From positions 14,919,027 through 14,983,026 of the forward strand of contig OY759221.1 of NCBI GenBank assembly GCA_963662175.1: a stretch of 64,000 bases of DNA. Direction: 5' to 3'. Numbering within the stretch: the stretch's first letter is position 1; each line of letters begins with the position of its first letter. Positions 2,668 to 58,442 of this stretch are shown one piece after another. Position numbers and translations under genes: made by a program. Source of the stretch: Aradus depressus (Eukaryota > Arthropoda > Insecta > Hemiptera > Aradidae). The notes beneath the pieces are model-generated. The model was not told where the DNA came from. It was given only the letters and a program-made list of their open reading frames with translations, and made no database searches.

Positions 2668-2729
2668 ATGATGGAATCGCAGGGTCAAGAAGTCGTCGCA
2701 GGGCCTGCGGAAGTACCCAACGATCCAGG
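2668..2729 (+). CDS. Rbp6: Musashi/Rbp6-family RNA-binding protein, first coding exon
   Basis: Encodes the short N-terminal tail ([10 protein letters not shown]... to ...VPNDPG) before RRM1 of a Musashi-type protein. These proteins bind 3' UTR motifs of target mRNAs through two RRMs and control translation in stem cells and neurons. There are two adjacent ATGs (2668, 2671); the second has A at -3 and G at +4. The exon stops after 20 codons plus two bases (CCA GG) at the donor GG|GTATGT (2730). Those two bases are completed by the first G of the exon at 58402 to give Gly, so the phases match exactly. The [17 protein letters not shown] junction is characteristic of vertebrate MSI2 and insect Rbp6, whereas Drosophila msi begins RRM1 differently. 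The tail is family-typical in length but variable, so identity rests mainly on the junction and on exon 2. Confidence 0.85.
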
Positions 2730-2863
2730 GTATGTTTGTTTATCTTTTTTAAAAATTTATTTTTCTTTACTTATAATTTGCCTTCGGCTGAATATACCTG
2801 TTTTAGGTCTAGTGGCAGAGAACACGTGCAAATGTGTTGTCACATAGCGAATGTGTTGAGTTT

Positions 2864-3000
2864 TGCATTTGGCGGTTTGGAGCATGCTCACAAAGGCTTG
2901 GTTTCCCACGAGGTCACCGGTCCACCTCATTCACCCCCCCCTCCCGCTCCGCGCCGCCGCCCCCCCTACCTCCGCGAATCTTCCTCCAATCTCAGTTATT
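2864..3000 (+). promoter_or_regulatory. GC-rich start of intron 1
   Basis: C-rich and CpG-rich stretch (ctcccgctccgcgccgccgc at its core) 200 bases inside intron 1, continuing the GC-rich character of the promoter area. First-intron regulatory DNA is plausible but not shown by any specific site. Confidence 0.35.
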
Positions 3001-3231
3001 ATAAAGCTGTCTGCTGAGCTGTTCTGTAAGATCACTCCAAGAAGGCCCCTAGTGAGCTAACAGTACAGAACGATCTGGGAACCATATGTTCCACATTGAC
3101 TGGGGAATCCAAACTGTAATAAACAGTGAAGAAAACATCCCACCCAAGAATAAATAAGACATATATATATATATGAGGATGTGTCGAAGAGTAATGGAGT
3201 TGAATAATGAGTGTACATGAAGGGTAAAAAA

Positions 3232-3785
3232 ATGTCGGTGAATCACCGGCGATGTGCTTCTCTCTCTTCAAAACCAATGGGCCGTTTGTGCTAAACAACT
3301 ATAGTTGGCCTAAATAGGGGCTTCTGAATCATAAAACTAAATTTTGTGTCGATACATTCATTACAACGGCAGTTATTGAGATTTTTGAGCCAAGCCACCC
3401 TCCTCTGATCCCCCTTACCTTCGACCGATTCCGCTGAAAATTGATATGTGTCGTCCTAATGGGGTTTTGAATTTACATATAAAATTTCTTCTCAATACAA
3501 TCATTTCAACGGCAGTTATTAGATTTTTTGTGTTAAGCACCTCTCTAATCCCCCCCTTCCCTTTGACCCATGTGATTGAAAGTCCATAGATGTCATTTTT
3601 ATGGGGTTCTGGATACACATATAACATTTCGTGTCGATATATTGATTATATTGGGGATTATTATTTTCACAGACACATGCTCACACAGAAAGATTTTAAA
3701 TTTTTGGAATCAGAAAGAAACATGAATTTTAACCGATTACAGAACTTTCCTTATACCTCGTATGCCTGGGGAAGTAAAACGCTCT
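3232..3785 (+). repeat. Family A copy, both ends present
   Basis: Begins with the palindrome-bearing end 'gtcggtgaatcaccggc', then internal monomers with 'cattacaacggcagttattgag' and 'aatcccccc'. It ends with 'cttatacctcgtatgcctggggaagtaaaac', a degraded form of the hairpin end. Monomers are separated by 'ggggttttgaatttacatat' phrases. Confidence 0.75.
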
Positions 3786-4296
3786 CTGACTTGCAGGTAG
3801 TGCTGAACTGCGTTATCTTATATTTACTCCATTCACACATTACGAAACTTCAGTAACTGTCATCCTTTCTTACATTTTTTGATTACACTGGTATTTAACG
3901 CAAGTTTGTATAACGATTACCCCGGTTACGGTTAACCCGAGCAAAAAAAAAATCCTTTGGAAAATTATTTTCCTAGCTTGAACCATTATTATTGGCCCTC
4001 GGTCCACCCAGGAGCACTTGTGCAAACAATATTTTCATTTGGGGAAGTGCTTTTACAATGTTTTTCTTGGATTGTTTCCATCTTGGTGACATGTTTGGTG
4101 ATATCGCCATTAAAGAGACAGGTTTTTAAAAAATAAGTCCTAGGTATTTTAAGTCACATTTGCCTATAATTAAAAACCATATTTATCGTATTTTTTTTGT
4201 ACTATGAGAAAAATGTCAAAGGAGGGTGGGGGTGAGGGGAGCGGCCCCCCTTAAATCTGATTATACATATATTTCTAGCTCAATATAATATTTTGT
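3786..4296. other. Unassigned intronic sequence
   Basis: AT-rich with one G-rich patch (4219-4250, ggagggtgggggtgagggga). No repeat family or exon recognised. Confidence 0.4.
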
Positions 4297-4401
4297 ACAT
4301 GTTAGATCGTCGACATATGAGAAGAAAGGAACGGTTTTTCTCCATTATTAGTTATATCCATTTTAGATTTTATAATAATAATTCAAACTATATATATATA
4401 G

Positions 4402-4475
<74 letters not shown>

Positions 4476-56215: not shown

Positions 56216-57025
56216 TTTCTGTGGGAACTAAGTACCTGGACTTAACTACTTGGTGACGTAGGGAATGCTGAGGTCAGTATGGAGGGTCTTGTAGTAAGGA
56301 GCATTGGCTATTGTACGAAGGATTTGAGGGAGAGAAAGAGAGAGAGTGAGAAAGAGATCTGTATGTGTGGCTGATATAAGAAAGTCCTGTAATTATCACA
56401 TCACCTATTTTAATTTGTTGTCTTGTTGCTGGTATATTAACCGCTCTGCTCTATAGTATAGTGGAGACAACGTGCTGCGGAGAGAGTACTGGCGAGTAGC
56501 TAGAGAGCACTGACGACTAGCTAGAGAGCACTGGCAACTTGCTAGACAGACTGACCTTGCCCAGGCGTAAATTGTGAGGAACTATTCAAATTTTAAATTT
56601 GGAAAATACCTGTTGACCATATTGACAGTACGTCTGAAGCCTAGTGTTATCAGCTGGTAACTGTTATTTTTTTCAATTTTCCTATAAAATGTCTTATAAA
56701 GGAGATTGCTTGTTTTTGAAAAGTGTTCCTAAATTGAACCAATTTAGTTCTAGGTCTGTATTATTTGCTTTGCCCGTCTCTTGGCATTCCCAACAGTTCC
56801 TGTTCTACATTGATCCAGCCCCTTAATTAGCATCCTGATGGCCAAGCGGACCACCTGCCTTTCGCCCAAACCTTTCTCGCCTCTGACAGGTTTAATATGG
56901 AAGTTCGGATTATCTGCGCTAGCTACTTCCATTCTAGGCGGCGTCAAACGATGATGAACCTTGAAAAGTCGGTTGCATTGTGCTGTCTGAGGTAAAACCT
57001 GAACACAAAACACTAATCACTATCT
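56216..57025. other. Unassigned sequence with a short array and coding-like stretch
   Basis: 56478-56555 repeats 'gagagcactggcgactagcta' three times (about 29 bases each). 'gatataagaaagtcctgtaattatcacatcac' at 56371 matches the start of the family B copy near 33550. 56830-57000 is GC-richer, with frames on both strands (- strand MEVASADNPNFHIKPVRGEK...), not recognised. Confidence 0.4.
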
Positions 57026-57375
57026 TGAGGGCGCCGATAGCTCTCAGTGGTATGCGTGGTTGCTTATTGAGCTCAAGTTCGCGAGTTCGAAACCCGACCG
57101 AGGCCCTTAGTTTATTTTATCTGGGAGGTAAAATAAACTTAAGCACGCCGTCCTTCGGATGGGACGTTAAGCGATGGTCCCGAGCCTGTACGATGTCAGG
57201 TACTCGTTCAAGACCCCTGTCCTAGGTGAATAGAAATTTAGGGTAGACAAAATTTAGGACACCCATATTAGAGTCTGGCTCATGTCCACCAGAATGACGA
57301 AAAAGAGCTCTGGTAGTAGGCGATATGACCTCGTAGTTAAAGCCCGGGCATGAGTCATAAAACCTAACCTAACCT
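57026..57375 (+). mobile_element. SINE-1, full length
   Basis: Head 'gagggcgccgatagctctcagtgg' and B box 'gcgagttcgaaacccgaccgagg', complete body, tail AACCTAACCTAACCT. One of the closest copies to consensus. It lies about 1 kb upstream of exon 2. Confidence 0.93.
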
Positions 57376-57904
57376 GTATAAGTAATAGATGTAGCACACA
57401 GATTTGGTCGTATATTTATTTATTTCCTTATATAACGTTTGTTCCTCGTCCCTTGCACTATCCAACAAGACCTCAGACATAATTTTTGTTACATTGCACT
57501 AAGTTAGGATGTACATTTATTTTCTTTAAATCGTATTAATAGGTAGCAGGAATAACCAACGATGTGATAGGAACAGAGTGACCGGGTTGATAAAACATAG
57601 TCAAACAGTTTGATATCATTCAAGTCGTGAGCGATATACCTACTTGGCGTTTAGGTTCTTAGTGTGCTGCGAGGGTAATGTCAAGATTTAAAAGGTTTAC
57701 AATAAATAACATTGTTTTTCATATAAACATTTTTTTTTCATCCTGAATGAAGTTATAAAACGTTCCAACAACTCTGTATTAAAATCTCAAATTGATAAGT
57801 TCAATGTCACTCGAACGGGATGGGAGGACTGGTTTGGCGACAACATGAATACGACTTATATACGTTTTTATTCATTCAACTTCCTTCTCAATAAAAAAAA
57901 AAAA
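57376..57904. other. Unassigned intronic sequence upstream of exon 2
   Basis: No repeat or exon recognised. Confidence 0.4.
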
Positions 57905-58287
57905 AAATCGTCAGTGAATAACCGGCAATGTACTTCCCCAGTTATAAGAAGTATAAGGGAAGTTATGTAATCAGAGAAAAATTCTATGCCAATTTTTCAA
58001 CAGTCTCATGTTTTCCGACCTGATTCCAAAAATTAATAAAAACTTTAGTTGGAGTGTCTATGTCTGTCTCTCTGTGAACACGATAACTCCCGATAAAATG
58101 AATGTATCCATACAAAATTTTACATGTGTGACCATAATCTTCTAAGGACGACTCCAATTAATTTTCAGCCAAATCGGCCTAAAAGAAGAGGCGATTAGGG
58201 GGAGGCTTAACACAAAAACTCTAATAACTGCTGGTGAATGTGTATTGACGACACCTACTACATTTCAGCGAAATTAGCGTAAGGGGG
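57905..58287 (-). repeat. Family A copy with exchanged end
   Basis: Opens with a forward start ('tcgtcagtgaataaccggc', 'aatgtacttccccag') that passes, within the shared TACTTCCCCAG, into a reversed hairpin end ('ttataagaagtataagggaagttatg') and a reversed body to 58285. The two ends are fused at the terminal repeat. Confidence 0.8.
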
Positions 58288-58345
58288 GCTCATGCCCAAA
58301 AGAGCGACCCAAGCCCGGGCATGAGTCATAATAACTACTCTTTAT
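58288..58345 (+). mobile_element. SINE-1 scrap
   Basis: 'ggctcatgcccaaaagagcg' and 'gcccgggcatgagtcataataacta', 57 bases upstream of exon 2. Confidence 0.7.
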
Positions 58346-58401
58346 TTATCTATATAACTCCTATTAATGTTACTAATTTAAAAATATATTTATTGTTTCA
58401 G

Positions 58402-58442
58402 GAAAATGTTCATTGGAGGGCTCAGCTGGCAAACAAGTCCAG
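58402..58442 (+). CDS. Rbp6: Musashi/Rbp6-family RNA-binding protein, exon 2 (start of RRM1)
   Basis: 41-nt exon. With the GG carried over from exon 1 it encodes G then [13 protein letters not shown], and leaves one G for the next exon (which would make Glu or Asp, as in the family). MFIGGL is the RNP2 strand of RRM1 and SWQTSP its following turn; this run is nearly invariant in MSI1/MSI2/Rbp6. The acceptor TTTATTGTTTCAG|G and donor CAG|GTGAGT are both strong, with a TACTAAT branch match 25 bases upstream. The small size matches the split of RRM1 over several exons in vertebrate MSI2. The rest of RRM1, RRM2 and the C-terminal tail must lie beyond 64000. Inverted SINE-1 and family A copies flank the exon. 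Confidence 0.92.

Follow-up and report, generated by a model that had tools for sequence, protein, structure and literature searches.

The 64-kb stretch of Aradus depressus DNA analyzed here (the window) very probably holds the 5′ end of a heteropteran bug Rbp6 gene, in which a coding segment starting at 2668 and ending at 2729 is joined to an exon beginning at 58402 and the remainder of the protein lies to the right. In the model that we propose from sequence, transcription would run rightward along the + strand from a start left of 2668, and translation would begin at 2668 or at the adjacent ATG at 2671. Removal of the 55.7-kb intron (2730–58401) would join the 62-nt segment to the 41-nt exon, which would supply the first strand (RNP2) of RRM1; coding sequence for the remaining RRM1, for RRM2 and for the C-terminus would follow beyond the window's right end. 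Presumably expressed, the protein would bind RNA via its two RRMs and regulate target mRNAs, by analogy with Musashi proteins. Genes of such a layout are missed by ORF callers, which gives the model its value for annotation; the window also probably shows in a bug what is known from fly Rbp6, a 41-nt exon and large introns. The features are collected in Table 1.

Table 1. Predicted gene parts and repeats in the window
Feature	Position	Strand	Description
First coding exon of Rbp6, coding part	2668–2729	+	62 nt, 21 residues, last codon split GG/G
Intron	2730–58401	+	55,672 bp, GT...AG
Second coding exon	58402–58442	+	41 nt, 13 residues; first strand and RNP2 of RRM1
Start of next intron	58443–64000	+	Runs out of the window
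Young LTR retrotransposon	17611–22827	−	Within the intron; orientation judged from the 405-aa ORF alone
Dispersed repeats, ~120–143-bp units	142–349, 3284–3548, 6111–6503, 8873–9080, 12196–12651, 25905–26112
Dispersed repeats, ~120–143-bp units, continued	28212–28447, 37065–37189, 55100–55221, 58081–58205, 61505–62067
Recent tandem array	34752–35201		178-bp unit ×2.5, 98% matching
Recent tandem array	43936–44487		188-bp unit ×2.9, 98% matching
Purine-rich tandem array, AGAAAGAGGAAGAGGGGAGA type	41946–42328		Periods 20, 80, 99, 100

Exon sequences, reading phase and plausible start codon

Reading the sequence directly, we found an ATG at 2668 and, at the 3′ end of exon 1, CCAGG/GTATGT with the GT donor at 2729/2730. 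Exon 2 reads GAAAATG...CCAG and is flanked by AG and GT, with TTGTTTCAG on its 5′ side and /GTGAGT on its 3′ side. Exon 1 leaves phase 2, the third base of the GGG (Gly) codon comes from exon 2, and AAA ATG TTC follows; joined, the two exons give 34 residues and one leftover base. This base, the last G of exon 2, starts the next codon and fits the Glu that comes next in all 120 listed homologues. A preliminary description of the window had paired a 62-nt segment with a 41-nt exon of compatible phase 55.7 kb away, which our reading of the sequence confirmed. Its remark that neither exon is a long ORF holds for the coding frames; a 119-aa stop-to-stop ORF (2658–3017) runs over exon 1 in another frame.

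Upstream of 2668 the nearest in-frame stop is at 2632 and ATG is absent between the two, which makes 2668 a plausible start; the 5′ UTR lies to its left. When the 3322 GT sites of the + strand were scored with a simple, hand-entered consensus matrix, the donor of exon 2 was unsurpassed (the site at 47569, with the identical nine bases, ties with it) and the donor of exon 1 ranked 41st. Among 250-bp bins of the first 6000 positions, the CpG observed/expected ratio was 1.68 in 2251–2500, just left of the start codon. Because the AT-rich bin 4251–4500, which holds 3 CpG, exceeds this with 2.31, no promoter was located by CpG.

For homology searches we used the best 120 of 7521 homologues at E ≤ 0.001 (7973 scored candidates from a large protein collection). 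When these were compared by tblastn with the 64-kb window, exon 1 came out on top, with 21/21 residues matched at E 4e-8, followed by exon 2 with 13/13 at E 0.001, and the third-best place reached only E 0.16; exon 1 was matched by 115 of the 120 queries and exon 2 by every one. The two exons lie on one strand, in order and phase-matched, with a GT donor at the end of each. A dead gene copy or a chance match, for which nothing spoke, has a vanishingly small probability, since splice signals, phase and 34/34 residues are all intact; the tblastn ranking rules out chance, and the presence of an intron shows that the locus is not a retrocopy. No further Rbp6 exon was convincing in the window with the 120 listed homologues: the 187 weak matches on the + strand inside the intron were at best E 0.16, to the C-terminal part of the homologues, and right of 58442 the same strand gave a single match (E 4.5).

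Identity of the gene

The listed homologues that carry names (among the best 120 of 7521) are mostly insect proteins called 'RNA-binding protein Musashi homolog Rbp6' or 'RNA-binding protein 6'. One of them is R4WE31, listed under Riptortus pedestris, whose first 34 residues are identical to the joined exons; the comparison is with R4WE31 as a protein alone, and it means that in a related animal the two pieces adjoin within a single protein. Two RRM_1 stretches are present in R4WE31, and only three of its first 230 residues, all among the first 21, depart from Halyomorpha Rbp6 isoform X8. By this likeness of sequence R4WE31 is best taken as an Rbp6 orthologue, even though its UniRef name is 'Heterogeneous nuclear ribonucleoprotein'.

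The part encoded by exon 1 tells groups of insects apart. Of its 21 residues, 21 are shared with Riptortus R4WE31, 20 with Cimex lectularius, 18 with Halyomorpha halys and 15 with Clastoptera arizonana, whereas none of the named beetles, wasps, bees and flies that were counted shares more than 11; these are ungapped, right-aligned counts, which penalise lineages with an extra residue and, through the anchor used, leave out ten homologues that have V for I in the following segment. Among the matches listed, four of the seven proteins closest in this part are named, and all four are hemipteran (Riptortus, Cimex, Halyomorpha, Clastoptera); Riptortus and Cimex both belong to Heteroptera, which makes a heteropteran source of the window most likely. 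The 13-residue segment from exon 2 (RNP2, the start of RRM1) is identical in 107 of the 120 listed homologues, and ten of the remaining thirteen have V for I. Correspondingly, MFIGGLSW occurs in 110/120 and MFVGGLSW in 10/120, and one 14-residue stretch is common to all ten of the V-for-I proteins.

The same region is found in vertebrate Musashi-2 (MSI2), where a 14-residue stretch in PDB entries 6c8u and 6nty (chains of 115 and 94 residues) is identical to the joined peptide with no mismatch, although the alignment stops short of the N-terminal residues of the window. The best E-value among solved structures belonged to an hnRNP D-like chain, which matched twice but less exactly than Musashi-2. 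Together with the UniRef label of R4WE31, and with a similar 9-residue motif being common to hnRNP D-like, hnRNP A/B and other proteins, this could suggest that the exons come from the paralogue musashi (msi) or another hnRNP gene. We consider such an origin highly improbable, because the 21 N-terminal residues, which lie outside the domain, match, among the listed homologues, bug proteins that are labelled Rbp6 (Cimex, Halyomorpha) or nearly identical to one so labelled. Judged by its homologues, the gene in the window is Rbp6, which in insects is the orthologue of vertebrate Musashi; they likewise support the preliminary description in its splice phase and in placing the N-terminus and the RNP2 region of RRM1 of a Musashi/Rbp6 protein here.

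Another possibility is that both exons belong to Rbp6, yet its main transcripts do not splice one to the other and instead use a different first exon, within the window or beyond it. Insect Rbp6 proteins do have many named isoforms (X1 to X10 among the listed names), and in Drosophila shorter transcripts with RRM2 only exist (PMC3507872). On the other hand, R4WE31 carries the two segments next to each other, and NDPG, which also ends the Rbp6-type N-terminus in the window, directly precedes KMF(I/V)GGLSW in 119 of the 120 listed homologues, the remaining one having two extra residues between. A second N-terminal segment was not found either, the best other + strand match in the intron to the first 200 residues of the homologues being E 0.94. 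We therefore regard the use of a separate first exon as very unlikely, and the splice from 2729 to 58402 remains the preferred reading.

Comparison with Drosophila Rbp6

The exon table of Drosophila melanogaster Rbp6 (CG32169) gives a gene length of 172,933 bp and 15 exons for isoform A, with an exon 3 of 41 bp, an exon 4 of 82 bp and introns of 13,509 and 42,426 bp listed for exons 2 and 3, respectively (PMC3507872). Its authors termed this structure unusual (PMC3507872). The two genes are alike in an early 41-bp exon, in very short exons amid very large introns and in a two-RRM protein of the Musashi type. They differ in the intron before the 41-nt exon, which at 55,672 bp is ~4 times longer here than the 13,509 bp of the fly, and in the N-terminal residues, where the listed Drosophila species depart from the window. 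The 41-nt exon probably corresponds to the 41-bp exon 3 of the fly, as suggested by size, order and protein, the passages of the fly paper giving the size of that exon and not its residues. In this comparison with one species, an early 41-nt coding exon between large introns is thus present in the window, which contains the left intron whole and the first 5.6 kb of the right one.

The tiny-exon, huge-intron layout is therefore an already described trait of Rbp6 in Drosophila, and finding it here is ordinary; the surprise expressed in the preliminary description was overrated for this reason. Its view of the window as essentially one giant intron is supported by the homologues and by the Drosophila exon table (PMC3507872). 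The position of the intron is likely to be conserved in bugs.

The intron and its removal

In a study of fly cells, high-confidence ratchet sites were found in 63% of introns >40 kb (PMC6110457). With crude patterns we found no canonical ratchet site in the 55.7-kb intron. The motif YAG/GTRAGT occurs once, at 47571, with a pyrimidine fraction of 0.3, which is not convincing, and is absent (0 copies) from the opposite strand. The looser YAG/GTRWG with a pyrimidine fraction of at least 0.6 gave 0 sites in sense and 1 in antisense orientation, compared with a mean of 0.98 in 60 first-order Markov shuffles. Ratchet-type sites are thus not enriched, and a count of 0 where ~1 is expected does not amount to a meaningful depletion. 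The absence of such a site from one long intron is not surprising and does not contradict the pairing of the exons. It seems doubtful that, unlike most fly introns >40 kb, this one leaves the transcript all at once or in steps that bypass canonical sites. Our literature search found no paper joining recursive splicing and Rbp6.

Other genes and repeats

The preliminary description held Rbp6 to be the only host gene in the window. Indeed, no other was recognised: Pfam searches of 30 of the 97 stop-to-stop ORFs of at least 75 aa (E ≤ 0.01, 0.1 and 0.05 in separate ORF scans) gave nothing above the curated family cut-off, and a tRNA scan with bacterial settings and an Rfam scan of the window gave nothing. 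Small nested or non-coding genes may nevertheless be present. Sub-threshold Pfam matches, all from the scan at E ≤ 0.1, included CSN8, Mucin2_WxxW and Neil1, which were weaker than those described below for the ORF of the LTR element and for zf-RVT.

Within the intron, 19,396 of 55,672 bp (~35%) match other parts of the window (self-matches, E ≤ 1e-5). The true repeat content is probably higher, because this count comes from self-matches of the window without a repeat library. The LTR retrotransposon has terminal repeats of ~805 bp (17611–18415 and 22022–22827) that are 99.88% identical over 806 aligned positions, with TG...CA ends, and is inserted in an AT run. Its one long ORF (405 aa, 20556–21770, − strand) starts with a stretch rich in charged residues and had no homologue at E ≤ 0.001 among the 6018 candidates of the collection searched. 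The Pfam matches of this ORF are weak and of coiled-coil type, all below the cut-off (Apolipoprotein, 37.6 bits against 90; Baculo_PEP_C, 26.2 against 38; Exonuc_VII_L, 15.8 against 35.9). Since the ORF scan and the searches recognised no polymerase in the element, it is perhaps non-autonomous. Two 2-kb bins that coincide with the element (18001–22000) have a strongly negative GC skew, of −0.375 and −0.429.

The dispersed repeats occur as single and short tandem copies on both strands and are ~60–84% alike. A GC skew of 0.238 was seen over 42001–44000, the stretch of the purine-rich array. Near the right end of the intron, 55467–55724 may carry the trace of a non-LTR retrotransposon, with a sub-threshold zf-RVT match of 18 bits against a cut-off of 27.5.
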